Shown piece by piece: positions 12,882-28,771 of a stretch of DNA of 33,976 nt (positions are counted from its first letter, which is position 1; every line of letters starts with the position of its first letter). The position numbers and the translations under genes were made by a program. This DNA comes from a bacterium (lineage in GTDB: Bacteria > Chlamydiota > Chlamydiia > Chlamydiales > SM23-39), in the NCBI GenBank assembly GCA_021809325.1, contig JAKBAE010000007.1, positions 1 to 33,976 on the forward strand, given 5' to 3'. Under the pieces are notes generated by a model that did not search any database, was not told the DNA's origin, and saw nothing but the letters and a program-made list of their open reading frames with translations.

Positions 12882-12889
12882 GTTTTTAT

Positions 12890-12961
12890 GAGACTTTAGC
12901 TCAGCGGTAGAGCATCTCACTTTTAATGAGAGGGTCGATGGTTCGAATCCATCAAGTCTCA
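12890..12961 (+). tRNA. tRNA-Lys (anticodon TTT), likely integration target
   Basis: Acceptor GAGACTT (12890-12896) pairs with AAGTCTC (12954-12960). The D-arm is TAGCTCAGCGGTAGAGCA, the anticodon loop CTTTTAA carries TTT, and the T-arm is GATGG-TTCGAAT-CCATC. The discriminator is A at 12961. The next gene, 166 bases downstream and on the same strand, is a tyrosine recombinase, the classic arrangement of an element inserted into a tRNA 3' end. No second copy of the tRNA 3' end was found by eye in the rest of the window. Confidence 0.95.
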
Positions 12962-13004
12962 ACTTTCTATCCCACACAATCTTTTGCACATCAGCTCAAA
13001 GCAA

Positions 13005-13127: not shown

Positions 13128-14198
13128 ATGGCTTCCATTTACAAGCGCAAATCCAAAGATGGTAAGACAGCCTGGCGTGCTGTCATCCGCATCAAAGGCT
13201 ATCCCACCGTCTGCAATCACTTCGATCGTAAGCAAGAAGCCGACGATTGGGCGAAAGAAACCGAACGCCGCATCAAACTCGGCCAGTTCAATTTTGAAGC
13301 CCACAACCAGCATCATACCTACGCAGAGCTCATCGACCGCCTGATCGCTGACGGCGCGCTTTCCCATCACCGCTCTCTTAAGAACTGCCAATCCCAGTTC
13401 GACTATTGGAAGGGGCGTCTAGGAGCTTACGCCCTGGTACATATCACCCCCGAGCTCATTTCTCAAGAGCGTAAACTCCTCATCGATTCACCTCTGCCTG
13501 ATGGCCGCAAGCGCAGCGCCTCGACGATCAACCGTTATACGGCCACTCTGTCCTCGACCTTGAGCTATGCCGTCAAGAAGCTCCGCTGGATCATAGAAAA
13601 TCCTTGCAAAAACCTGCTCAAACTCAAAGAAGATCCAGGCCGTGACCGAATCCTCACCGATGCCGAGGTCGCCTGTCTTCTCAAAGCCTGTAAGCAAAGC
13701 AAATCCTCCCTCCTCTATCCTATCGTTCTCTTTGCCCTGACTACCGGTGCGCGTCGCGGAGAGATCCTCAGTTTAGAATGGCGACATGTCGACCTCGAAA
13801 AAGGCATCGTTTTTCTCAAAGAGACGAAGAATGGGCGCCCTCGCAGTGTTGCCTTGGCTGATCCCGTGATCGATCAACTCAAGGCTTTATACGCAGCCCG
13901 TCAATCTGCGAAGCCGCTTGTCTTTGCCAGCAAGACCGCTTTTGGGCGGATTGATATCAAAAAGGCGTGGATGCAAGCGGTTAAACGAGCCGGAATCGAA
14001 GACTATCACTTTCATGATCTCCGACATCAATTCGCCACCCTTGCCGCCAGCACGGGAGCTTCCAATTTAGAATTGGCCACCGCGATGGGTCATCGTACAC
14101 TTGCCATGCTTCAGCGCTACACTCACCTCGATGCTCAGACGACCAAGAAATTCAGCAATCATATCTCAGAAAAATTTTTCCAAGGAGAAATCCGATGA
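13128..14198 (+). CDS. Tyrosine recombinase / integrase
   Basis: Site-specific DNA integrase. The 356-residue protein has an N-terminal arm-binding region starting MASIYKRKSKDG, a SAM-like core-binding domain (about 65-165) and a catalytic domain with all signature residues: Arg209 (TGARRGE), His296-x-x-Arg299 (HDLRH), His322 (MGHRT) and nucleophile Tyr331 (RYTHL). It is therefore probably active. It starts 166 bases after tRNA-Lys on the same strand. Its stop overlaps the dinD start as ATGA, so three genes (integrase, DinD, zeta-like) form one coupled unit, an unusual arrangement because integrases are normally transcribed alone. Confidence 0.93.
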   Translation: MASIYKRKSKDGKTAWRAVIRIKGYPTVCNHFDRKQEADDWAKETERRIKLGQFNFEAHNQHHTYAELIDRLIADGALSHHRSLKNCQSQFDYWKGRLGAYALVHITPELISQERKLLIDSPLPDGRKRSASTINRYTATLSSTLSYAVKKLRWIIENPCKNLLKLKEDPGRDRILTDAEVACLLKACKQSKSSLLYPIVLFALTTGARRGEILSLEWRHVDLEKGIVFLKETKNGRPRSVALADPVIDQLKALYAARQSAKPLVFASKTAFGRIDIKKAWMQAVKRAGIEDYHFHDLRHQFATLAASTGASNLELATAMGHRTLAMLQRYTHLDAQTTKKFSNHISEKFFQGEIR

Positions 14199-15079
14199 AT
14201 TCAAATACACCGGTTCCAGCTAATCCAACGTTTGAGTCTCTTAAAAAGGTGAACCAATTCGGTGTCGAGTATTGGAGCGCAAGGGATTTGCAGTCTTGTT
14301 TGGGATATACAAAATGGCAGCGATTTGAACTTGCAATCAAAAAAGCCATAGAGTCTTGCAAGCAATCTGGCAACGATCCTTCGAACCATTTTGCCGGCGC
14401 CGGTAAAATGGTCGAGATTGGAAGCCAGGCAGATAGGAAGATCGACGATTACCATCTTTCCCGTTTTGCCTGTTATTTGATTGCTCAGAACGGAGATCCG
14501 AGAAAGCCGGAAATTGCTCAAGCTCAGCAGTATTTTGCCTTTCAAACCCGACGGCAAGAGATTTCAGACCAGATGGCGGCGGATCTTGAGAGAGTAGAAA
14601 CGCGGGAGCAAACTACTGTAGAGTTCAAAGCTCTTTCAGGAGCTGCCCGTGATGCAGGAGTTCAAAATAAGATGTTCGGTATCTTCCATGATGCAGGATA
14701 CAAGGGACTCTATGGTGGGTTGGGCGTGGATGCAATTAAGAGCCGCAAGGGCATCCCCCATAATGAAAACTTGATGGATCGAATGGGGACAACCGAGTTG
14801 ATTGCGAACCAATTTCGGATGTCGCAGACCCGAGAGAAACTTAAGCGGGATAACATCAAAAATCAAAGAGATGCGATGGACACCCACTGCATGGTTGGAA
14901 AGGAAGTTCGGGCAGCCATTGAAAAAATCGGAGGGACACCTCCTGAAAATATCCCTCCCGAAGAACACATCAAGAAAGTGAAGCAAAGGCTAAAAATATC
15001 CAAGCCCTTGCCAAATCTCGATTCCGTTGATGTGAGAGGTTTGATCCCATCCGTAAGCAAGGAAGGACTAGAAGAATAA
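14195..15079 (+). CDS. dinD: DNA damage-inducible protein D (DinD-like)
   Basis: DinD is an SOS-induced protein in E. coli reported to antagonise RecA filaments; homologues are widely scattered on mobile elements. The 294-residue product matches the family: an N-terminal BRO-N/antA-like segment (VEYWSARDLQSCLGYTKWQRF, about residues 22-42), the GAGKMVEIGS and DYHLSRFACYLIAQNGDPRKPEIA block near 70-105, and the VQNKMFGIFHDAGYKGLYGGLG segment. Such domains often sit in phage and transposon genes. The start overlaps the integrase stop by four bases, and the stop overlaps the next start by one base (TAATG). Regulation is unknown; no obvious LexA operator was seen upstream. Confidence 0.85.
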   Translation: MNSNTPVPANPTFESLKKVNQFGVEYWSARDLQSCLGYTKWQRFELAIKKAIESCKQSGNDPSNHFAGAGKMVEIGSQADRKIDDYHLSRFACYLIAQNGDPRKPEIAQAQQYFAFQTRRQEISDQMAADLERVETREQTTVEFKALSGAARDAGVQNKMFGIFHDAGYKGLYGGLGVDAIKSRKGIPHNENLMDRMGTTELIANQFRMSQTREKLKRDNIKNQRDAMDTHCMVGKEVRAAIEKIGGTPPENIPPEEHIKKVKQRLKISKPLPNLDSVDVRGLIPSVSKEGLEE

Positions 15080-15990
15080 TGAGCGACCCTATCAAGGAGA
15101 TCTATTGCCTTCTCGATGAATTCGAAGCCGAAATCACTCAGGAAAGATCCTTTTGGAACGAAGTTAAAGAGAATAATCCGGAATTCGAGCCGGTGTCTGA
15201 GGAAAGCTGTCAAGAAAAGATCACACGCATGTGGCTCCATGGTGAAACCGAGACATACAAGTGCTATGAACTGGAGCGATGGCTATATGGGGATCCTCCG
15301 GCTACGAAGATCGCGCAGTCGCCAGCTCTGAGCGTGTACAAAGATTGGAGGAAATGGTTGAAAATTGCGGGGATTCCGAAATTTACAACTCGTTATGACT
15401 ACGACAAAAGGACTAGATGGTATCGAGAAGTTAAATCGGAAGAACCATCAGATATGTATTATGTAGCTGATAAACGGTTTGACATAGAAGAACCCACCAA
15501 AGATTTGCGATTCGGCGATAATAAACTCATCATTGACGAAATGAAGATTGATTCCTATCTGGCTTCTGCTGCAACTGATTTTATCCGACACAAGCTAATC
15601 CAAATGGGAAATTCTTTTACGTTTGAAACGGTCATGTCTCATCCTGGGAAAATAGAGATTCTACAAAAGGCTCAGGAAAAGGGATATCGAACTTATCTTT
15701 ATTTTATCGCAACAGAAGATCCTGAAATCAATATTACGCGTATTCAGCATCGGATCAAAACTGGAGGTCATTCGGTTCCTAAGAATAAAATCCGGAATCG
15801 CTATGATCGTTCATTGGCTCTACTGAGCCAAGCTATTCAATTCATCAATCGAGCCTATATCTTTGATAATTCACGTCAGGAGCCGATTTGGTTGGCGGAA
15901 ATTACCGATGGAAAAATATTGGAAATGAAAAGTGAATGGGTGCCTGACTGGTTTGAAAAGGCGCTATTGAAGAAATTAAAAAGCATGTGA
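15079..15990 (+). CDS. Zeta-toxin-like protein lacking the P-loop
   Basis: The C-terminal half (about residues 155-275) closely follows the zeta-toxin-like P-loop kinase family (COG4185 type): SYLASAATDFIRHKL, SFTFETVMSHPGKIE, GYRTYLYFIATEDPEIN, then RYDRSLALLSQAI and AYIFDNS. In that family a GxxGxGKS/T Walker A motif normally precedes this block. Here the first 150 residues contain no such motif in any frame and instead form a Trp- and charge-rich segment I do not recognise. The protein may be an inactivated kinase, a fusion with a new N-terminal domain, or a nucleotide-free regulator. It is coupled to dinD by a one-base overlap. No separate antitoxin gene is seen next to it. Confidence 0.65.
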   Translation: MSDPIKEIYCLLDEFEAEITQERSFWNEVKENNPEFEPVSEESCQEKITRMWLHGETETYKCYELERWLYGDPPATKIAQSPALSVYKDWRKWLKIAGIPKFTTRYDYDKRTRWYREVKSEEPSDMYYVADKRFDIEEPTKDLRFGDNKLIIDEMKIDSYLASAATDFIRHKLIQMGNSFTFETVMSHPGKIEILQKAQEKGYRTYLYFIATEDPEINITRIQHRIKTGGHSVPKNKIRNRYDRSLALLSQAIQFINRAYIFDNSRQEPIWLAEITDGKILEMKSEWVPDWFEKALLKKLKSM

Positions 15991-16055
15991 CTATACAGTT
16001 TCCTTTAATTCGTTTTGCGTGGCTGCTATTGAGGTGAAAGGGGTATGGGTTCTCC

Positions 16056-16085
16056 TTGACATAAAATATTTTAGAGCATTATAGC
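16056..16085 (+). promoter_or_regulatory. Sigma70-like promoter of the electron-transfer operon
   Basis: A perfect -35 hexamer TTGACA at 16056-16061 is followed after 17 bases by TTATAG (16079-16084) or after 18 by TATAGC (16080-16085). This is the best promoter seen in the window. Initiation is expected at about 16091-16093, which coincides with the GTG start codon of the downstream gene. Confidence 0.65.
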
Positions 16086-16092
16086 ATAGCGT

Positions 16093-17640
16093 GTGTTTAC
16101 GAAATGGAATCAATGGTTTCGAGATCGTCTTCCCCTTTCTTCAATTAAAAAGGCGCTTTTTGAAGAAGGGATTCCCGGAGGGGCCAAGTATTCTTATGCG
16201 TTAGGAAGTGCAGCCCTCTTTTTGCTGGTCCTTCTCGTCTTGACAGGCATCTGGCAAATGTTTGTCTACGTTCCAACCGTTGACCATGCATATACTAGCC
16301 TCTCCTACTTAAGAATCGATGTTCCCTTTGGATGGCTGGTCCATGGGCTGCATTATTGGGGCGCAGCTGCTTTTGCAGTTGTCGTAGGAGTGCATATCAT
16401 TCGAGTCTTCATTTGGGGCGCTTATAAAAAGCCAAGAGAGCTCGTTTGGTTTTCAGGAATTTTCCTTTTATTGTTGACAGTCCTTTTCATGTTCACAGGC
16501 CCAATCCTTCCTTGGGATAAAAAAGGGTATTGGGCTTGCAAGGTTGGGTTTGACATGATTGGAAGTTTGCCGTGGATCGGATCACTTCTTCAATCCATAT
16601 TTTGGGGATCCGAATCCATGGGGCAGGCCATTCTTAGCAGAATGTTTGCGTTTCACGTCGTGATCCTCCCGGCTCTTATTGGGGTGTTTGTCGTTTTACA
16701 TGTGCTTTTATTTCGAAGATATGGAAGTGCGGGCACTTGGAAAAAGGAGAAGCAAAATAGTGAAGGCCGATTCTGGCCGGATCAGATTTTCAAAGATACG
16801 ATTGTATCTTTAGCTATTTTTGTTTTGTTGGTTTCTTTAACCGTCTTTGTCCCTCCTCCATTTTCCGGAGCGGCAGATCCTTTAGATACTATCTACATCC
16901 CTAAGCCCGAATGGACCTTTTCTTTTTTTTACCAACTTTTAAAATATTTTCCCGGCCCTTGGGAGCCGCTTGGCATCGCGGGGATTCCTCTTCTCATTCT
17001 CCTTTTTTTTGCCTCTCTTCCCTTTATCGATCGATCGGAAGAGCGTCATCCGCTCAAACGCCCGTTTATCGTTTTTTTTGGCTCCCTCTTTTGCGCCTTT
17101 ATTGCAGCAATGACGATTCTAGGCCTTCTCAGCAAACCAAAAGAGGCAGCCATTCCCGTATCTCAAAATTTTATCGCAAGCCCCTCGCATGAAAAGTCTC
17201 TAACAAAGAAAGTTTTGCCCAATGGCGAAGCAATTCACATTGTTGGCAATGAAGAAAATGGAGAACGGTTATATGAGGCCTATTGCATGAATTGCCATGG
17301 CCCGCAAGGAAAACCGGTGATCCCCATTATTCCGAGTTTAAATCCGATCAGCCCAGCCTTTTACAGCCAAACTGTTTCCACTTTTGTTAAAAATATCGAC
17401 ATGATCATTCAACATGGCGGGGCCTCAAAGGAAATTGAGATGCCAGCTTTTGGAGATACGGAAGTTCTCACGCAGCAGCAAATCGCAGATATCGAAGCCT
17501 ATATCCTTCAAATCAATGGAGTTGACCGAGGCCAAATCCAACACCCCGGTGTTTCGCCGCATCGCTTCTTTTATTATTTTATAGGAGTGTTGGGGTGTTT
17601 GGTTGTTTTGAATTTTATTTTCATTAGACGCAAAAGATGA
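16093..17640 (+). CDS. Cytochrome b fused to a C-terminal cytochrome c (bc-type quinol oxidoreductase)
   Basis: Core of a menaquinol/quinol-oxidising bc complex in the inner membrane. Haem b ligands are visible as His87-x13-His101 and His188-x14-His203; the x14 spacing and the GYWACKVG...PWIG region resemble b6f-type cytochrome b. The Qo-site motif reads PEWT (272-275) instead of PEWY. After further helices (to about 340) comes a periplasmic cytochrome c domain with CMNCH at 398-402 and a final membrane helix. The start is the GTG at 16093: an in-frame TAG lies at 16087 and no later ATG fits. No Shine-Dalgarno is present and the promoter lies immediately upstream, so the message may be leaderless. 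The next gene starts four bases before this stop. Confidence 0.9.
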   Translation: MFTKWNQWFRDRLPLSSIKKALFEEGIPGGAKYSYALGSAALFLLVLLVLTGIWQMFVYVPTVDHAYTSLSYLRIDVPFGWLVHGLHYWGAAAFAVVVGVHIIRVFIWGAYKKPRELVWFSGIFLLLLTVLFMFTGPILPWDKKGYWACKVGFDMIGSLPWIGSLLQSIFWGSESMGQAILSRMFAFHVVILPALIGVFVVLHVLLFRRYGSAGTWKKEKQNSEGRFWPDQIFKDTIVSLAIFVLLVSLTVFVPPPFSGAADPLDTIYIPKPEWTFSFFYQLLKYFPGPWEPLGIAGIPLLILLFFASLPFIDRSEERHPLKRPFIVFFGSLFCAFIAAMTILGLLSKPKEAAIPVSQNFIASPSHEKSLTKKVLPNGEAIHIVGNEENGERLYEAYCMNCHGPQGKPVIPIIPSLNPISPAFYSQTVSTFVKNIDMIIQHGGASKEIEMPAFGDTEVLTQQQIADIEAYILQINGVDRGQIQHPGVSPHRFFYYFIGVLGCLVVLNFIFIRRKR

Positions 17641-19955
17641 AATTTTTTTCGTCAATCAAGCTGGCGATCGTTAACATCGTTCTTTTCATGATCTTAGTTG
17701 TGTTTGGAACAATCGCACAAATCTATTGGGGATCGCTCGAAGCTCAAGAAAAAATCTTTCGTGCTTTTTTTATCTTTTGGCAGTTTGATTTTTTGCCGAA
17801 AGAAGTTCCTGTTTTCCCGGGCGGATATGCAATAGGGGTTTTGTTTGCTCTCAATCTCTTCAGCTCCATGCTTACTTTTTCGGGGAAAAGGCTGGGCATC
17901 TATTTGATCCACTTCGGAATTCTATTTTTGTTAGTAGGCGAGGTGCTTTCGGGGATTTTTTCTTCGGAATCATTTCTTTCGCTCAAAGTAGGCGAAAAGA
18001 AAAGCGTAGGAAATCAGGCCCCGTTTCAAGTCGAGCTTGTTGAATTTCGTCAAGAGCTACACCCAGGCACGAATATTCCTAAACACTATTCGAGCTATCT
18101 ATTGGTTTTTACCCCTGAAGGCAAGCTCCTTCGAGTTGCATTTATCTCCATGAACCAGCCTTTCAGATTTTTAGGACAAACACTGTATCAAGCAGGGTTT
18201 ACAGAAGACGAATCGATTTTAAAAGTTGTATCCAATCCCTTTGCACTCTCCCCCTATCTCTCTTGTCTTTTGGTCCTCTTAGGATTTCTCACCCACTTTT
18301 TCACTCGTTTCTTTGTTTCTAGAAGAGTGCAAATAGCCGTTGCTTGCATGGTGTTTCTCCCCATTTTTGCAAACGCTGCGTCTCTTCAATACTTACCCGT
18401 TCAGCAAGACGGTCGCATCAAACCGCTCGATACCGTTGCCCGGAACTCCCTCTTGATGCTTCATGGATCGCAATCGCTAAAATACGAGCAGCAAACAATT
18501 GCTCCCATCGACTGGCTTCTCGATGTCTTGATGAATTCTAAGAAATCTAAAGAGATGAAATTGATCCGTGTCGAAAATTTAGATCTTTTAAGATTACTTG
18601 AAAGCAAAAGCAATGCAAGAGCTTATTATTCGATTAGTGAGCTGCAGCCGAAATTTAATGACCTGTTTGCTTTGTCTTCTTTGGCTCTGCAAATAGAAGA
18701 AAAAGCAAGAGATTCTTTTCAGAGGGCCGTCATCACTTTATGGCAGCAGATTGAGATCTATTTGCGATTGGCGAATAGCTTTTGGATTGCGGAAATTACT
18801 AATATTCCCGAGGAATTTTTAGATTTTCAAAATCACTATAGCGATCCCTGGCATCAAGAACGGTATCAATTTCTCTCGAATGTTGCTTACTTTCAAATGA
18901 TTCCTTTTGAGGGGCAATGGTTGAACATGGGAGAAGCTCTTCTCTCTAGCGATAAAGACAAAAGACTTTTGGGTCCGATTGAAAAGTTTGTCCGGCTCAT
19001 TTCAGATTATCAGCAAGGAAACCCGATCTCTATTTTAAAGCCGTCCTCAAAAATTTCTTTTGAGGTCTTCTTTAATCGGCTCCAACCTTTCTACATTGGG
19101 ATTTTCTGCTACCTATCAGCCATTTTACTGTCGGCCATCTTGAAAAATAAGATTCCGCTTTGGGTATTTGTAGGCGGGTTTCTCATTCATACTTTTGGGC
19201 TATTTGCTCGAATGTATCTCGAAGGACGACCTCCGGTGACAAATCTTTATTCCTCGGCGCTCTTTGTCGGTTGGGCAGCCGTGTTGATGAGCCTTGGCAT
19301 TGAATTTTTCTATCGCAATCGCTTGGGGTTGATTGCCGGAGCAGTGGTCGGCTCTTTGACATTGCTTATCGCACACCACTTTTCCTTTACCAGCGATACC
19401 ATGCAGCCGCTTCGAGCTGTGTTGAACTCGAATTTTTGGCTTTCGACGCATGTGGTGGCCATTACTTTAGGCTATAGCGCAACTTTTTTAGCCGGAACTT
19501 TTGGCACCATCTGGATTCTTGGGACGCTTTTTTCTCGAAAATTTTCCGGAGGCCGCACTCTTGAGACGCTCGTTTATGGGATCATTTGTTTTAGTGCATT
19601 CTTTAGCTTTCTGGGTACTGTTTTAGGCGGGTTTTGGGCAGATCAGTCTTGGGGCCGTTTTTGGGGGTGGGACCCAAAAGAAAACGGGGCCCTTTTAATC
19701 ATTTTGTGGAATTTGTTGATCCTTCATGCCCGGCTAGGCGGACTCATCCAAGCGCGAGGACTGATGGTGCTCTCCGTATTTGGAAATGTCGTGACAGCCT
19801 TTTCCTGGTTCGGCGTGAACTTCTTGAGCATCGGTTTGCACTCTTATGGATTTACAAGCGGATCTTTTTTACTCCTCTTTCTATTTGTGCTCTCTCAGGG
19901 AGTTGTTGTGGCGCTGGGTGGGTTTGTAAAAAAATCCTTGATTGTTTCTGGGTAA
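17637..19955 (+). CDS. ccsBA: Fused ResB-CcsA cytochrome c haem lyase (System II)
   Basis: Exports haem and attaches it to CxxCH motifs of c-type cytochromes. The N-terminal part (to about residue 225) is ResB/CcsB-like with several membrane helices. A long extracytoplasmic segment follows (about 245-475, opening with LQYLPVQQDGRIKPLDTVARN, typical of fused forms). The C-terminal part is CcsA-like with the Trp-rich haem-binding WGRFWGWDPKE motif (from Trp672) and several conserved His residues (THVVAITLGYS, LHSYGF). At 772 residues it is somewhat short for a CcsBA fusion but has both halves. It overlaps the cytochrome b-c gene by four bases, and every c-type substrate visible in this window is in the same operon. 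Confidence 0.9.
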   Translation: MKFFSSIKLAIVNIVLFMILVVFGTIAQIYWGSLEAQEKIFRAFFIFWQFDFLPKEVPVFPGGYAIGVLFALNLFSSMLTFSGKRLGIYLIHFGILFLLVGEVLSGIFSSESFLSLKVGEKKSVGNQAPFQVELVEFRQELHPGTNIPKHYSSYLLVFTPEGKLLRVAFISMNQPFRFLGQTLYQAGFTEDESILKVVSNPFALSPYLSCLLVLLGFLTHFFTRFFVSRRVQIAVACMVFLPIFANAASLQYLPVQQDGRIKPLDTVARNSLLMLHGSQSLKYEQQTIAPIDWLLDVLMNSKKSKEMKLIRVENLDLLRLLESKSNARAYYSISELQPKFNDLFALSSLALQIEEKARDSFQRAVITLWQQIEIYLRLANSFWIAEITNIPEEFLDFQNHYSDPWHQERYQFLSNVAYFQMIPFEGQWLNMGEALLSSDKDKRLLGPIEKFVRLISDYQQGNPISILKPSSKISFEVFFNRLQPFYIGIFCYLSAILLSAILKNKIPLWVFVGGFLIHTFGLFARMYLEGRPPVTNLYSSALFVGWAAVLMSLGIEFFYRNRLGLIAGAVVGSLTLLIAHHFSFTSDTMQPLRAVLNSNFWLSTHVVAITLGYSATFLAGTFGTIWILGTLFSRKFSGGRTLETLVYGIICFSAFFSFLGTVLGGFWADQSWGRFWGWDPKENGALLIILWNLLILHARLGGLIQARGLMVLSVFGNVVTAFSWFGVNFLSIGLHSYGFTSGSFLLLFLFVLSQGVVVALGGFVKKSLIVSG

Positions 19956-19974
19956 GTGTCCTATACCCTCTTCT

Positions 19975-20472
19975 ATGAAACAGTCTCGTTATTTTAAAGC
20001 AGTTGTAACAGTCGTTTCACTATTTATCATTGCTGCCTTAGGCTGGTCTTTTGGCTCTTATCTCGTAAGCCCTTTCTATAACACTAGCAGAAAACAACGT
20101 CTTTTTGAGGTGGACGGCTTTAAGACCTTAGTTGAAGAACATCCAACTCAGCTTTCTTTCCAAATGATTGCTCAGGATGAATTTATTAAGGAGAATAAGA
20201 TCCAACAAGTATGGGTGGTGAAGCATGCAGGGGATAAAGTGACGGTTTTTTCTCCGTTTTGTCCTCACCTAGGATGCCGCTACAATTGGGACCCGGCCTT
20301 GAAGAAATTTTTCTGTCCTTGCCACGCCAGCATTTTTAATATTAAAGGACAGGTGTTAAGCGGGCCTGCTCCCAGGTCGTTGGACACTTTGCCTTATGTG
20401 ATCAAGGACGATCAGTTGTACGTACAGTGGGAACAGTTCAAACCGGGAGTCAGTCAAAAAATTGAAATCTAG
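19975..20472 (+). CDS. Rieske [2Fe-2S] iron-sulphur protein
   Basis: Electron-transfer subunit of the bc complex, tethered by an N-terminal membrane helix (about residues 9-30) with the cluster domain outside. Cluster ligands are Cys96, His98, Cys114 and His117, in CPHLGC and CPCHAS. Cys101 and Cys116 form the expected disulphide, and the SGPAPRSL loop is present. The ATG at 19975 is preferred over an in-frame TTG at 19942 because it gives a normal N-terminus, though neither has a strong Shine-Dalgarno. The gene starts 19 bases after the haem-lyase stop. Its 3' end overlaps the small cytochrome c gene by 11 bases. Confidence 0.93.
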   Translation: MKQSRYFKAVVTVVSLFIIAALGWSFGSYLVSPFYNTSRKQRLFEVDGFKTLVEEHPTQLSFQMIAQDEFIKENKIQQVWVVKHAGDKVTVFSPFCPHLGCRYNWDPALKKFFCPCHASIFNIKGQVLSGPAPRSLDTLPYVIKDDQLYVQWEQFKPGVSQKIEI

Positions 20473-20779
20473 AATTTTGGCTGTCCTCTTTTTTAGCGGG
20501 CTCTTCGCTTCTCTTTACGGACAAAATGGACAACAGCTCTTCAACAATAACTGCGCTGTATGCCATGGGACTGAGGGCCATGGAAATACCCCCATGGGCA
20601 AAGCGATTTCCAATTTGCCCGATTTGGCCAGCCCGTCCACCGATCAGCTCTCCGATGAAGAAATATTCGATATCATTACGAACGGCAAAGGAGTAATGCC
20701 CGCATTTCAGCAAAAACTGAGCGATGCGGATCGCAAGGCATTAATCAAGTATGTGCGTTCATTGTCAGAAAAGAAATGA
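20462..20779 (+). CDS. Small periplasmic monohaem cytochrome c
   Basis: Probable soluble electron carrier. The 105-residue product has a signal peptide (about residues 1-20), haem motif CAVCH (31-35) and the distal Met79 in GVMPAF, as in class I cytochromes (cytochrome c-553/cbb3 type). The start is a TTG at 20462 inside the end of the Rieske gene, with GGGAG some 12 bases upstream. An alternative TTG at 20477 would still leave a signal peptide. The stop overlaps the next gene start as ATGA. Position suggests it takes electrons from the bc complex and passes them onward. Confidence 0.9.
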   Translation: MKSRILAVLFFSGLFASLYGQNGQQLFNNNCAVCHGTEGHGNTPMGKAISNLPDLASPSTDQLSDEEIFDIITNGKGVMPAFQQKLSDADRKALIKYVRSLSEKK

Positions 20780-21891
20780 GATTTTATTTAGCTCTTTTTC
20801 TTCTTCTTTGTAGTAAAACACTTGAAGCGGTGCCGAGTTTTGCAAGAAATCTTGGGGTTGATTGCAATGTTTGCCATACGGCCTATCCGCAGTTAACCGA
20901 ATATGGGAAGATATTTTTGGAAACCGGCGGGGAAATTCTAATTCAAAAGGATTATGGAAAGCTCGCTATGACGCCGGAAGTGATTTCCGGCCATGTATAT
21001 TTGCTCCCTGTAGATAAGCATTTTTCTGCCGATTCGACTACAGCGCTTACAAATGAAGATAAGCAATTGCAGTTAAGGGCCTACAGTGAAGTCAATGCCT
21101 ACCTCGCCGGTCGTACGGGAAAAGTGTTTTTCTTTACCGTTTTTTCCGCGACTGACGACAACGGCTTTTCTGTGACCTTCGATGAAGGGTTTGCTATGCT
21201 CAATCTTTTGAGTAACAGCCTAAATATCTTTGGCGGTTTTGATTCCCCCTACATCACAGATGGCAACGATACCGTTCAGCATCATAACGTATTGAATCGA
21301 CAGTGGAAAGCCGCCGAATACACGCCTGATACAAGCCAGATGGTTGGCCTCAATGGAATGCTGGGTGGTTTTTATTGGATTGCTACATGGAATGGCGCCC
21401 CTCAAGTTACTATGGGAAATGATGCGCAAGGATACAGTTTAAGGGCCGCCTACGAAGTTTCCAATCAAACCTTTGGCGCTTATCTCTCTCATAACGCTTT
21501 CTATGACGACAATGCTGAATACTCGATTGACCCTTTTTTATTTTATGGATTGGATGGGCACTTGCGATTTTGGGATACAAATATCCTGATGGTCCTTGGT
21601 TTTAGGAAATTGCATCACTATGAAACGGATTGGGATTTTTCTATAGAAGCAAATAAGATTTTTACGACCAACTGGAAATATCTTACTGAGATCATTCCTA
21701 TTGCCAATCTCGATATCTTTGTCGATCGACCTAAAAGCAATGGACTATGGCTGCAAGGCTCTGCCGGAGTTGCATTCAATATCAACCCCTCTGTTCGTTT
21801 TTTGCCCCAAGTTTCGGGAACTCTCTATTCTCCATCGGAATACAAGCATAAGGCATTCTCCGTGCTTCTCTCCGCAGATATCGGTTTATAG
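20776..21891 (+). CDS. Outer-membrane barrel-like protein with N-terminal haem c motif
   Basis: Exported 371-residue protein. A signal peptide (about 1-18) is followed by PSFARNLGVDCNVCHTAYP, with a c-type haem motif at Cys30-Cys33-His34. From about residue 60 onward the sequence alternates polar and hydrophobic residues with aromatic girdles and many Gly/Asn/Asp turns, as in an outer-membrane beta-barrel, ending in VLLSADIGL. Proteins with this N-terminus joined to a barrel occur in many respiring bacteria. It is the last gene of the operon, overlapping the small cytochrome c by four bases. I infer that it carries haem at the periplasmic mouth of an outer-membrane barrel. The length fits about 14-16 strands, but this is not computed. 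Confidence 0.75.
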   Translation: MRFYLALFLLLCSKTLEAVPSFARNLGVDCNVCHTAYPQLTEYGKIFLETGGEILIQKDYGKLAMTPEVISGHVYLLPVDKHFSADSTTALTNEDKQLQLRAYSEVNAYLAGRTGKVFFFTVFSATDDNGFSVTFDEGFAMLNLLSNSLNIFGGFDSPYITDGNDTVQHHNVLNRQWKAAEYTPDTSQMVGLNGMLGGFYWIATWNGAPQVTMGNDAQGYSLRAAYEVSNQTFGAYLSHNAFYDDNAEYSIDPFLFYGLDGHLRFWDTNILMVLGFRKLHHYETDWDFSIEANKIFTTNWKYLTEIIPIANLDIFVDRPKSNGLWLQGSAGVAFNINPSVRFLPQVSGTLYSPSEYKHKAFSVLLSADIGL

Positions 21892-21947: not shown

Positions 21948-24176
21948 TTAGTAGGTCCAGTTGCCTACAGATGAGGTCACCAGCCAGTCTGCATTATCGG
22001 CTATGCAAACCATGTTGAGCGTGTCTCCTTGGTTATTCGAAGTAATACTTCCGCTAACCGGCACTAGTACATCTCCAAACTGGACCGTTTGCGATCCGCT
22101 TTGTTGAACTGAAATTTGATTGCCTCCTTTCAGAGAAACCGTCAACAAGTCGCCAAAAGCAGAGCTGGCCGGAAGAGAAACCGAGACCGTGCCCGAAACT
22201 CCAAGGTAGGCGTGATTAGAGGTCGCCGCCGTGTTGGTGGAAACGGTTCCCCAAACAACTCCTGCAGCAGTCGACGCAATCGTAATCCCTCCCGCAGAAT
22301 TAGTAATCACAATACCGTTTCCAGGAGTCAGGGTGGCTGCTGCCGGATTCGCGCCGGTAGATCCAATGAGAACCTGGCCATTTGTCATTGGCCCGATTGT
22401 TCCAAGCTGCCCGTGCGGGTCGATCACTACTGGCGCGCTCACCGTGCCTGCCGTTGAAACCGTGCCATAGATGCCGCCGATGTAGCACTGCGTCATTGAG
22501 GCTGTCGCGCCGATACGAGTGACATTCGATTCGCCTGCTATCCCCAAAACGTTCGCGCCGATCAAGATATTGTTCGACTCGCTGCCACTGTAATTCGCAC
22601 CTACCTGATAGCCAATTGCTGTATTCTCAGTTCCGGAGAAGCCGAAAAAGGGTATGGCGCCTGCACCGAAGGCCGTGTTATTATCACCTGTATTGCCGGT
22701 GAGAGCATTCATCCCCATCGCTGTGCAAGAACCGTAAGTTCCCCCATTGGCTAAAGCCGAGTAGCCTACGCCGCAATTATTATTGCCATTAGTAGCATTT
22801 AGAGAATAATGTCCTACAGCCGTGTTGTTGAGTGGTACGACCCCCCCCTGACCGGTGAATTGCATGGCATATGATCCTACAGCAACATTTTCGCCGCCAT
22901 CCACTAGGGTGTATAAGGCCTGAGTTCCAATCGCGATATTCATACTGCCGCTTAAGTTGCTATACATAGCTGAAGTGCCCATGGCGACGTTTTGGTTCCC
23001 GCCTCTATTTGAAAACATAGCGTTTGATCCAACAGCGGTATTTGCGATGTTATCATTGGCATAAAGCGCTTGATAACCGACGGCGACATTATCATGCCCT
23101 ACAACATTAGTATAAAGGGCCTGGTAGCCCATAGCGACATTAAAGCCGGCTGCTACATTAGAGGTAAGCGCTTGGTATCCTACGGCTGTATTGCTATCTC
23201 CCGTAGTATTGCTCTGCAAAGCGCCGGCTCCAAATGCTGTGTTGTAAGGGTTGGTGTTGGCATAGAGAGCATTACAGCCCATTGCTGTACAAGAGCCGCC
23301 TATCACATTGCTGTAAAGCGCATTAAACCCAACTGCTGCGTTATAAGCGCCAGTTGTATTGGCCTGGAGCGCAAAGGATCCCACGGCAGTGTTGCCGAGG
23401 CCTGTTGTATTGGAAGACAGAGTCCAATGTCCTATGGCGGTGTTGTCATCAGCTATACTGGCGGTTTCAAGCGCAATATTTCCTATGGCAGTGTTTCTAG
23501 ATCCTGTCGAGCTGTTCCTAAGAGCTTGGTTTCCTACAGCGGTGTTGTTAGCGCCTGTCGTATTACTGCTAAGCGCGCTATATCCTACGCCGGTGTTACT
23601 GTCCGTCGTATTGCTGGCAAGAGCACCTGATCCTATAGCGGTGTTAAAGCTGCCCGTCGTATTGCTGCTAAGAGCAAAATATCCTATGCCGGTGTTCTCT
23701 CCGCCTGTTGTATTGGCATTAAGTGCGGAAGATCCTACAGCGACGTTATCATAGCCTGACGTATTGGTAGCGAGCGCATCATTCCCTAAGGCGGCATTTT
23801 CATAGCCGTCTAGATTTGCAGCAAGCGCATTAGCGCCCACAGCGGTGTTGTGGTCCCCGCTCGTATTGGCAGAGAGCGCATATGCCCCTATGGCAGTAAT
23901 GGAGTCTTGCGTGTTGGCACCAGAGAGCGCATGAGCTCCTACGGCTGTGTTAAAACTGTGTGTTGTATTCGAGGAAAGCGCACCGGCTCCTAAGGCGGTG
24001 TTGAAATCACCACTCGTATTAGAAGAGAGCGCTTGGTGGCCGATAGCTGTGCAGCTGGCCCCTGTTGAGCTTGTCGAGAGAGCGCCTGCTCCCATCGATG
24101 TGATATAAGGGGACGAATTTTGAGTGACTATTGTGTCCGATACGGTGTCTTGATTAGTAACGTTTATTAAGTTCAT
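21948..24176 (-). CDS. Large repeat protein with about 30 seventeen-residue N-T-A-V-G repeats
   Basis: A 742-residue protein. Residues about 30-540 consist of about 30 tandem copies of a 17-residue unit, roughly N-T-A-V-G-x-x-A-L-x-x-N-x-T-G-x-x, giving a 51-base DNA periodicity. This resembles the left-handed beta-roll heads of trimeric adhesins and phage-type tail fibres. The remaining 200 residues include IGGIYGTVSTAGTVSAPV, reminiscent of the stalk before S74 endosialidase-chaperone domains, then a Ser/Thr-rich beta domain ending VGNWTY. No signal peptide and no YadA-type membrane anchor are visible, so the export route is unclear. A surface or secreted adhesin is inferred. Extended AT-rich sequence (24177-24317) precedes it. 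Confidence 0.75.
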   Translation of the reverse strand: MNLINVTNQDTVSDTIVTQNSSPYITSMGAGALSTSSTGASCTAIGHQALSSNTSGDFNTALGAGALSSNTTHSFNTAVGAHALSGANTQDSITAIGAYALSANTSGDHNTAVGANALAANLDGYENAALGNDALATNTSGYDNVAVGSSALNANTTGGENTGIGYFALSSNTTGSFNTAIGSGALASNTTDSNTGVGYSALSSNTTGANNTAVGNQALRNSSTGSRNTAIGNIALETASIADDNTAIGHWTLSSNTTGLGNTAVGSFALQANTTGAYNAAVGFNALYSNVIGGSCTAMGCNALYANTNPYNTAFGAGALQSNTTGDSNTAVGYQALTSNVAAGFNVAMGYQALYTNVVGHDNVAVGYQALYANDNIANTAVGSNAMFSNRGGNQNVAMGTSAMYSNLSGSMNIAIGTQALYTLVDGGENVAVGSYAMQFTGQGGVVPLNNTAVGHYSLNATNGNNNCGVGYSALANGGTYGSCTAMGMNALTGNTGDNNTAFGAGAIPFFGFSGTENTAIGYQVGANYSGSESNNILIGANVLGIAGESNVTRIGATASMTQCYIGGIYGTVSTAGTVSAPVVIDPHGQLGTIGPMTNGQVLIGSTGANPAAATLTPGNGIVITNSAGGITIASTAAGVVWGTVSTNTAATSNHAYLGVSGTVSVSLPASSAFGDLLTVSLKGGNQISVQQSGSQTVQFGDVLVPVSGSITSNNQGDTLNMVCIADNADWLVTSSVGNWTY

Positions 24177-24317: not shown

Positions 24318-25190
24318 TTAAAACTGAAGTGCCGCGCCCAGGTTATAGGCAATTGAATAGGTCGACTTATCTTGCTTTCCATTCAAATTCTGTATTAGGG
24401 GAAATCCGATGCCCCATTGAAAAATCCAGCGGTTGGATGAGAGCCAAATGCTTGGCGTCACAAAAAGCGAATTCCCTCCGGAATCGGGATCGGTTTTGCC
24501 ATCGATCCTGTCCCTCTCAACATACTGTCCGTCAAATTCGACCATCAAATCGAAAACCCAGCCCGGCGGGCTCAAGGGGCCGATATACCGGGCAAAGCCC
24601 CATTGATAGAGATAGGAGTTGCCGAATTTAGTGCCGTGACGGGTAGTAGTGATTAGGGCGCCCGGAGATGCGAATGCGTACCAATTTGGCGTAAGATAGG
24701 CAAAGGTTGTCCCTAAAAAGTAGCTACACGATCCGTTGCCTGTCGGAGGATTTTTTATGCTCGATCCGGTAGGGAACTGGATGGCCCCGACGACGGTAGT
24801 CTGAAAAATCGCCTCTCGGTAGGTCAGGTTGTAGTACCCATACTCCGCCTGTAAGAGAAGATCTCCCACCCCTGATGAATGCAAGGGGCCGGAGCGGTTT
24901 TTTAAATTGTATGGGACAAAAAGGGCGAGGGAAAGGTCGTCCAAAATCCCATAGATGACGTTTGGGACGAGCAAATTTGAGCTGCTTTTTCGCCCTTGCG
25001 TGTAGGATCCCGACAGCTCCGGAAAGAGAACTTGTTTGCCGATCAGCAGTTGTCCAAAGCTGATGAGCGGGGAAACCTGCGTTGCGGGCGGAACGGAGAA
25101 ATTGCCGATGGGAACAGGTTTTTTTTCCTCTTCTTCAATCGCAAAAAGAGAGGCGCTTAAGGCCACTATGCAAAGACACTTTCCTCTCAA
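24318..25190 (-). CDS. Outer-membrane beta-barrel protein (transporter-like)
   Basis: Exported protein of about 290 residues. A short signal peptide (RGKCLCIVALSASLFA) leads into a sequence with alternating hydrophobic strands (for example YGILDDLSLALFVPYNL and VGDLLLQAEYGYYNLTYREAIFQTTVV) and a terminal Phe, as expected for a BAM-folded barrel. It resembles the loosely defined MetA/phenol-pathway outer-membrane family, but I cannot name a substrate. The TTG at 25190 is preferred: it overlaps the stop of the uracil glycosylase as TTGA, and AGAGAGGG lies just upstream. The alternative ATG at 25223 would overlap that gene by 37 bases and lacks a Shine-Dalgarno. Confidence 0.7.
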   Translation of the reverse strand: MRGKCLCIVALSASLFAIEEEEKKPVPIGNFSVPPATQVSPLISFGQLLIGKQVLFPELSGSYTQGRKSSSNLLVPNVIYGILDDLSLALFVPYNLKNRSGPLHSSGVGDLLLQAEYGYYNLTYREAIFQTTVVGAIQFPTGSSIKNPPTGNGSCSYFLGTTFAYLTPNWYAFASPGALITTTRHGTKFGNSYLYQWGFARYIGPLSPPGWVFDLMVEFDGQYVERDRIDGKTDPDSGGNSLFVTPSIWLSSNRWIFQWGIGFPLIQNLNGKQDKSTYSIAYNLGAALQF

Positions 25191-25849
25191 AGAGCCCTCT
25201 CTTGGATTTTTTTTAAAAGGCATTGGAAGCTTTGGTCTGTGAGCACCCCTGTATTGGTGTTTTGGGGGCTGGGGTGATAGCTCGCATAGAGAAGAGGGAC
25301 TCCTTCACATTCATAACAGGCGCCGTGGGCGAACTTGAAGGAGCGGCAGGCAATGTTTCGACGCAAGAGATGGGATTTATAGGCTTGAAACGCGATCTGC
25401 CCAAGCGCAAGGACGGATTTCAAGCGGGGCAGGAGTGTGAGCTCTTCTTCCAAATAACGGCTGCATCGCTCGATTTCAATAGGCAGCGGTTTATGCTTCG
25501 GCGGGACGCATTTGACCGCTGCGGTAAGGTAGCAGCCGATGAGCTTGAGCCCATCTTGTCTATGCAATGAATCAGGCTGGTTGGCAAATCCTGCAGCGTG
25601 GAGATTGCGGATCAAAAACTTTGCAGAAGGGTCGCCCGTAAAGATCCGCCCGGTGCGGTTTGCACCGTCCGAGGAAGGGGCGAGTCCCAAGATCAACAGC
25701 CACGCCTCGGGATCTCCAAATCCCGGGATCGGTTTTCGCCAATGGGTCTCCGATGCATAGCATTTTCGCGAGGGGACTGACTCACGGTGCTCGACGAGCC
25801 TCGGGCAAAGGCGGCACTCGATAATGGCGTCGTTTAAGCTTTTTTTCAA
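25187..25849 (-). CDS. Uracil-DNA glycosylase, family 5 (UdgB) type
   Basis: Removes uracil and some other deaminated bases from DNA. Motif 1 reads GLAPSSDGANRTGRIFTGD (residues 55-73), close to the UDGb pattern, and the HPSPQNTNTG motif is near residue 190. Four cysteines (12, 15, 114, 129) fit the [4Fe-4S] site of iron-sulphur glycosylases. The start is a TTG at 25849 with AGGAG six bases upstream. At 220 residues it is normal for the family. It shares a coupled junction with the outer-membrane gene downstream and diverges from the hydrolase gene. Confidence 0.87.
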   Translation of the reverse strand: MKKSLNDAIIECRLCPRLVEHRESVPSRKCYASETHWRKPIPGFGDPEAWLLILGLAPSSDGANRTGRIFTGDPSAKFLIRNLHAAGFANQPDSLHRQDGLKLIGCYLTAAVKCVPPKHKPLPIEIERCSRYLEEELTLLPRLKSVLALGQIAFQAYKSHLLRRNIACRSFKFAHGACYECEGVPLLYASYHPSPQNTNTGVLTDQSFQCLLKKIQERAL

Positions 25850-27532: not shown

Positions 27533-28771
27533 TTAATCTCGGATAACAGGAATGTCGCTCCAGGATGTCGTAAAGTTCGGCGTTGCGCTAGATCTGGCGC
27601 TTCGCCACTGCCGTTTAAGCCCCATCGCAGCGGAATGGACTTGCTCTTTGTCATAGCGGCGGTTGATCCGGTCGATTGTTTGCATGAGCGCGTTTTTTTT
27701 GGGGTTGTCCTGAGAGGGCGCAAAGAGATCTGTTTGAAGCGAGCCGGCATCTGAAAAATCGCCGAGCATCACCCCGGCCTTTTTGTAGGCGACGCCCGGC
27801 GTCAAGATGCGGGCGAGCGCCTCTTTAGACAGACGGATGAGCTCCGGCGTGTAGTCGCTTGGAATTGGCAGTGTGACGTGGCAAGAGCGCGACTCAAAGG
27901 GCTTTGCAAAAGGGCTTGTCCGGATAAAGACCGAGAGAAACGCCGCCCGGCTCTCTTGCTCGCGCAGCTTTTCGGCGGCGCGGCTGGCAAAGGCCGCAAT
28001 CGCTTCTTCAAGGACGGCCCTATCCGTAACTTTTTCGCTAAACGAGCGCGAGCAGACGATCGATTGGCGCTTAGAGATTTCTTCTTCCAAGGGAAAGCAG
28101 GGGATGGAGCGAAGCTCGAGGGCCGTCTTCAAGCCCATGAGGCCAAGCGCGCTTTGGATTAAACTGTCAGGAGCATCTCTGAGCTGGGCCGCGGTATAGA
28201 TCTGCTTGGCCCTGAGCCTCTCTTCGGAGGCTTTTGCCAGGCCCCAAATCTCATGGGGGGCCGTTTTTTCCAAGATTTCTCGGATCTTTTCCGGCTCTGT
28301 CAGGACAGAGACGCCGGTTTGATTTTTTTTTGCCGAATGATTGGCTAGCTTGGCGAGCGTTTTTGTCGGGGCGACGCCGATGGAGATCGGAATCCCCGTC
28401 CACTGCTTGACTTTGCTGCGCATACGGAGGCACTCCTCTTCAAAGGCGAGGTTTTCTTCCAAAAGAAAAAAGGCTTCGTCGATCGAATAGATCTCCATAT
28501 TGGGAGAAAAGGACTCCAGCGTCTGCATGACGCGCTCCGACATGTCCGCATAGAGGGCGAAATTAGAAGAGAGCATCCGGATCTCTTTGCGGTCTTTATA
28601 GAGGAAGGCCGGATCGCCCATCTTGATGCCGAGCTCTTTGGCTTTTTTTGAGCGGGCGATCACGCAGCCGTCATTATTCGAGAGGATCACCAGCGGATGC
28701 TTGGCAAGGGAGGGGGTGAAGACCTCTTCGCAAGACGCGTAGAAGTTGTTGCAGTCGACAAGGGCAAACAT
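27533..28771 (-). CDS. umuC: Error-prone DNA polymerase V catalytic subunit
   Basis: Y-family translesion polymerase. Catalytic residues are Asp6 (FALVDCNNFYASCEE) and Asp98-Glu99 (YSIDEAFF); the helix-hairpin-helix, little-finger and UmuC-specific C-terminal region (MGLKRQWRSARSSATPNFTT) are all present. The 412-residue length is typical. The start overlaps the umuD stop by one base (TGATG), as in umuDC operons. Confidence 0.96.
   Translation of the reverse strand: MFALVDCNNFYASCEEVFTPSLAKHPLVILSNNDGCVIARSKKAKELGIKMGDPAFLYKDRKEIRMLSSNFALYADMSERVMQTLESFSPNMEIYSIDEAFFLLEENLAFEEECLRMRSKVKQWTGIPISIGVAPTKTLAKLANHSAKKNQTGVSVLTEPEKIREILEKTAPHEIWGLAKASEERLRAKQIYTAAQLRDAPDSLIQSALGLMGLKTALELRSIPCFPLEEEISKRQSIVCSRSFSEKVTDRAVLEEAIAAFASRAAEKLREQESRAAFLSVFIRTSPFAKPFESRSCHVTLPIPSDYTPELIRLSKEALARILTPGVAYKKAGVMLGDFSDAGSLQTDLFAPSQDNPKKNALMQTIDRINRRYDKEQVHSAAMGLKRQWRSARSSATPNFTTSWSDIPVIRD

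Follow-up and report, generated by a model that had tools for sequence, protein, structure and literature searches.

The window, by which we mean the whole stretch of DNA analysed (33,976 nucleotides), contains a cluster of five genes with overlapping ends, all of them on the plus strand. The cluster starts with a cytochrome b carrying a fused C-terminal cytochrome c domain (16093..17640, 515 aa), followed by a ResB-CcsB fused haem lyase of cytochrome c maturation (17637..19955, 772 aa), a Rieske protein with the sequences CPHLGC and CPCHAS (19942..20472) and a periplasmic monohaem class I cytochrome c (20462..20779, 105 aa). The preliminary description had given the remaining gene the last place in the operon, and it is indeed the final one of the five. 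It encodes a Cyc2-like fused cytochrome-porin of 371 aa plus stop, its open reading frame coincides exactly with positions 20776..21891 of the plus strand, and it is present as a single copy in the genome.

Analysis of the DNA preceding the cluster indicates that the tRNA-Lys gene (12889-12963) is directly followed by a tyrosine integrase gene (13128..14198, plus strand), and then by two further genes, of DinD and zeta-toxin-like type. The position of the integrase directly downstream of tRNA-Lys suggests that the cluster sits on a genomic island, and the low GC content of the genes from DinD to the Cyc2-like gene (0.42–0.46 for positions 14195-21891, against 0.50–0.57 in the measured flanking genes) suggests that it arrived horizontally. 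A repeat of the tRNA-Lys end, which would mark the far end of the island, was searched for downstream and was not found. The integrase, DinD-type and zeta-toxin-like genes (13128-15990) stand directly after tRNA-Glu/tRNA-Lys and head the low-GC stretch. Beyond the cluster, two minus-strand genes convergent with it (21948-24176 and 24318-25223) encode proteins of 742 and 301 aa with no Pfam match, and a Y-family polymerase (IMS and DUF4113, UmuC-like) is encoded at 27533-28771, also on the minus strand, beside a 143-aa open reading frame.

The Cyc2-like protein begins with a hydrophobic leader that, read by eye, is a probable signal peptide (residues 1-18, 20776..20829). The leader is followed by AVPSFARNLGVDCNVCHTAYPQL, which carries the single CxxCH of the protein, a haem c site formed by C30-N-V-C33-H34 (20863..20877). 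Upstream of this site lies the AXPXFAR part of the Cyc2 motif, here AVPSFAR (residues 18-24, 20827..20847), with NL as the next two residues, and downstream of it lies a PXL motif (P38-Q-L40, 20887..20895) in the local sequence TAYPQL. The protein contains three Cys in all its 371 aa, and a CxxCH arises in 53 of 100000 shuffles of its residues. A further segment, DGNDTVQHHNVLNRQW (21259..21306), pairs in the MAFFT alignment with a motif that other Cyc2-like proteins carry, NNNPTVQDxWN, and overlaps a helix (167-180) predicted, with low model confidence, between strands. No fitting model for the protein was found in Pfam or NCBIfam, and sequence searches of the PDB returned weak, unconvincing matches only.

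To compare the protein with Cyc2, we used the features given in the available portion of Keffer et al. 2021 (PMC8406198), namely a single CXXCH, the motif AXPXFAR[Q/K][T/Y] 5 aa upstream of it, PXL 4 aa downstream of it, and a fused 16-strand, OprO/OprP-like porin, with a pipeline minimum of 365 aa. The window protein has one N-terminal CXXCH at residues 30-34, PXL at the same distance of 4 aa, AXPXFAR at a spacing equal to that of the Cyc2 proteins of Acidithiobacillus, Mariprofundus and Leptospirillum (Cyt572), a leader and a predicted 16-strand OprO/OprP-like barrel. It differs from them in having NL in place of [Q/K][T/Y], in its length, just above the published cut-off, in a very divergent barrel sequence, in its chlamydial host and in the lack of a detected cytochrome c oxidase in the genomes that carry it. 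Since FARNL misses one defining feature, we name the protein Cyc2-like and not Cyc2, and regard it as a divergent fused cytochrome-porin of the Cyc2 type, a variant in an unexpected chlamydial host. Among 81 proteins, comprising the window protein and the best 80 of 442 loci (of these 80, six are truncated at a contig end), the full Cyc2 motif is present in 60, AXPXFAR in 65 and PXL in all 81.

In profile-profile comparison (hhalign), the match of the family to 22 Cyc2-like proteins (E 3.4e-17) extends over only 45 columns, at the N-terminus, and that to a proteobacterial group bearing FARKH (L015, L017 and L021; E 5.7e-17) over 211 columns. Members of the FARKH group are similarly short (390 aa) and align end to end by MAFFT, whereas their identity is about 20–22% and they carry KH where the window protein has NL. 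The profiles suggest the FARKH group as nearest kin, and we did not retain it as such because it is not the sister group on a midpoint-rooted, long-branched tree. In two of the FARKH loci (L015 and L021) a gene for a multi-CxxCH cytochrome lies downstream, and in two (L015 and L017) genes judged by eye to be metal-efflux-like lie upstream. The MtrAB, MtoAB and PioAB porin-cytochrome complexes, as described in the available portion of PMC8406198, also pass electrons across the outer membrane through a barrel. They differ from the window protein, in which one haem motif is fused to 16 predicted strands, by combining a 26-strand barrel with a decahaem cytochrome that is a separate protein, and the separate multihaem cytochrome and 26-strand porin of MtrAB/MtoAB are therefore not features of the window protein.

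The structure model, built from 22 sequences of which 18 came from outside the four chlamydial members, has 16 strands, a mean pLDDT of 58.3 and a pTM of 0.60, with the barrel predicted at residues 79-367 (21010..21876). Residues from about 188 to 360 of the barrel mostly reach a pLDDT of 65–80, and the N-terminal region that bears the haem (residues 13-91 and 94-104) stays below 50. Foldseek searches with this model gave 111 matches at E <= 0.001, and the best 50 of these are, judged by title, nearly all outer-membrane porins. The matches by VIA-align include 6ehe (OmpT, Z 21.3), OprO (4rjw, rmsd 3.3 over 293, Z 21.0) and OprP (2o4v, rmsd 3.8 over 302, Z 20.8), and further porins are level with these three at about Z 19–20. 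OprO and OprP also served as templates for Cyc2 in Keffer et al. 2021. An earlier model from four sequences (pLDDT 42.9) already matched mostly porins and was dropped as a sole basis owing to its poor quality. The present model contains Cyc2-like alignment rows and thus is not a fully independent test of the barrel, and with its moderate confidence it predicts the fused 16-strand porin expected of Cyc2. These data agree with the preliminary description of a haem c motif joined to an outer-membrane barrel, which structure prediction could have contradicted, and the compact layout, claimed there to suit electron passage, is that of published Cyc2 as given in the available portion of PMC8406198. 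The same source assigns the Cyc2 cytochrome to the periplasmic side. Given the low pLDDT of the haem region, the haem position rests on analogy with Cyc2, by which the haem would lie at the periplasmic end of the pore; its placement at the cell surface in the preliminary description found no support, and neither did the proposed role in haem or redox sensing.

The family is present in four of the 232 genomes of its phylum (G000, which is that of the window, G037, G093 and G173), taken to be Chlamydiota because the window genome belongs to the order of the named relatives, and in three of 147 genomes of an order-wide sample. A profile made from 22 other Cyc2-like proteins recovered the same four of 232 genomes and no others, with E from 2e-16 to 7.6e-12. 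The scan of a contig collection matched 541 stretches, of which 442 were confirmed; among the best 80 of these 442, three are full-length relatives, corresponding to G093 (L009, Chlamydiae bacterium SZUA-160), G173 (L010, Candidatus Rhabdochlamydia JOPF242) and G037 (L011, titled Verrucomicrobiota bacterium REEB163), and in the other 77 the match ends by query residue 151. The relatives are 54–58% identical to the window protein. CxxCH and PXL are invariant in the four members, which also bears out the haem motif under the check on close homologues, and the upstream motif reads AVPSFARNL in the window and AVPSFSKNL, AVSSFTRNL and AVPAFARNL in the relatives. A single-protein peptide-pattern scan of the contig collection yielded no confirmed relative, and none was found in viral contigs.

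In the tree of 78 proteins, which is midpoint-rooted, has long branches and omits three short, cut rows of the 81, the four chlamydial proteins group together as a single clade, whose branch measures 2.81 changes per column, and the window protein pairs with that of a genome of the same family (support 96/67). This grouping bears on the explanation that the cluster is not chlamydial and entered these assemblies by contamination during binning. The relatives do lie on contigs of metagenome-assembled genomes and the GC content of the cluster is below that of its flanks, but the cluster was found in four different genomes within a single order, three of them with named records, and their proteins share one clade, with the pairing just mentioned, and the window contig also bears pyrH, frr and a tsf-like gene (the last identified by eye), so that we regard contamination as very improbable.

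The gene order around the relatives was compared with that of the window. The cytochrome c gene lies directly upstream of the Cyc2-like gene in all four genomes, and the haem lyase adjoins the cluster in three of them. Cytochrome b was found in two genomes and a Rieske protein in three, the pair being intact in the window genome and G037 only. In G037 (L011) an arm with the Rieske, cytochrome c and Cyc2-like genes stands tail to tail with an arm of haem lyase and cytochrome b genes. In G093 (L009) the pair of cytochrome c and Cyc2-like genes is bordered by genes for CcsB, ResB and a DUF2231 protein, and neither cytochrome b nor Rieske was found. In G173 the Rieske, cytochrome c and Cyc2-like genes lie close to the contig end (L010), cytochrome b was not found in the 74% complete assembly, and the Rieske-like protein (L010:7139-7672), whose frame is intact, reads CPNEDC and CPCDAS, with both His ligands of the iron-sulphur cluster replaced. 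An ABC ATPase gene and the DUF2231 gene near the L009 copy were considered as partners and set aside, being seen at that locus only. The fused cytochrome b of the window is 56% identical to that of G037 over nearly its full length. It has matches in 51 of the 232 genomes, the next best (G033) being 34% identical over residues 5-340 and the others covering mainly residues 33-212 at about 30–39%, so that G037 holds the only near-full-length relative among the 232 genomes.

The invariant partner of the Cyc2-like protein is thus the small cytochrome c. The bc genes are absent or decayed in G093 and G173, and the link to the bc complex is not universal: the tie drawn in the preliminary description stands for the window genome and G037 and is not seen in the other two assemblies. 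One explanation that draws on this decay is that the porin haem is structural, vestigial or redox-sensing and that no electrons flow through it, and the large divergence of the protein and the low-confidence N-terminal model also point that way. We consider it improbable, although less so than contamination, since the haem site and PXL have been kept in all four proteins in spite of their divergence, beside cytochrome c in every genome and haem lyase in three.

We consider it probable (roughly 0.6) that the protein is a Cyc2-type outer-membrane electron conduit, whichever way the electrons run. The motifs and their spacing, the profile matches, the 16-strand model, the constant cytochrome c neighbour and the restriction of terminal-oxidase matches to quinol oxidases speak for this reading, and the FARNL variant, the confinement of the match with ordinary Cyc2 to the N-terminus, the very long branch and the two genomes lacking an intact bc complex speak against it. 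The position of the haem, iron as the substrate and the path of the electrons are what we infer, as follows. A small redox couple in solution, with Fe(II)/Fe(III) as the likeliest candidate, would enter the 16-strand pore and swap single electrons with its one haem c, which would sit at the periplasmic end, on the N-terminal plug. The porin haem would in turn swap electrons with the product of the adjacent upstream gene, the monohaem cytochrome c. In the organism of the window, the bc complex encoded in this operon would tie that cytochrome c to the quinone pool, and the ResB-CcsB protein would attach the haems. The resulting wire would connect the outside, the porin cytochrome, cytochrome c, the bc complex and quinone, and could be read from either end.

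The direction of flow was considered together with the other respiratory genes of the four genomes. COX1 matches number two in G000, one in G037, one in G173 and none in G093, and each of these four is best interpreted as a quinol oxidase of the Cyo type (the leading NCBIfam models are those of the cytochrome o ubiquinol oxidase, with one CyoA over its cut-off and the others below theirs); the CxxxC copper motif is absent from their subunits II. CydA is present in all four genomes, and the terminal oxidases found in them are quinol oxidases only. No CCP/MauG match was obtained in any of the four, and the PF13442 (CBB3-type cytochrome c) domains over the cut-off lie only inside the cluster in all four genomes. 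A weak PF13442 match on contig C29 of G000 was rejected, as it does not reach the cut-off and the long frame containing it looks by eye like that of an unrelated protein. Components of the bc, bd, bo and cbb3 types are described for Chlamydiae in the available portion of PMC9816063.

The three Cyc2 proteins whose biochemistry has been tested are Fe(II) oxidases according to the available portion of PMC8406198, and by analogy with them we lean weakly towards an inward flow of electrons, with oxidation of Fe(II), a reading to which we give somewhat less than even odds. The outward path, in which the bc complex would oxidise quinol and cytochrome c and the porin-cytochrome would pass the electrons on to an acceptor outside the cell, for instance a ferric chelate, is nearly as coherent, since no cytochrome c oxidase was detected, and we rank it slightly lower. 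With no CCP/MauG match and with every PF13442 domain over the cut-off inside the cluster, no other acceptor was found for a bc complex running forward, in a search that covered cytochrome c oxidase, CCP/MauG and PF13442 in incomplete metagenome-assembled genomes. The characterised Cyc2 proteins, however, act as oxidases, and G093 retains the cytochromes without the bc complex. In the G093 and G173 assemblies the pair of cytochrome c and Cyc2-like protein persists even though an intact bc complex is lacking, and this is explained by neither direction.

A literature search of titles and abstract openings found no report of Cyc2-like proteins in Chlamydiae, and the available portions of PMC9816063, PMC8242063 and PMC9723776 mention no outer-membrane cytochrome. 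For the organism of the window, we tentatively propose that the tRNA-linked island bears a self-contained respiratory module, composed of the bc complex, haem lyase, cytochrome c and one-haem porin, in which electrons could leave or enter only outside the cell and which, with no cytochrome c oxidase, might represent a minimal wire from quinone to the exterior. As no cytochrome c oxidase was found in them, these genomes could then serve as a naturally occurring minimal system for studying the direction of Cyc2-type electron flow. These data suggest that some mostly intracellular chlamydial bacteria may pass electrons across the outer membrane and, if the wire is true, extracellular electron exchange, described for iron bacteria, would reach a phylum known for host-dependent life.
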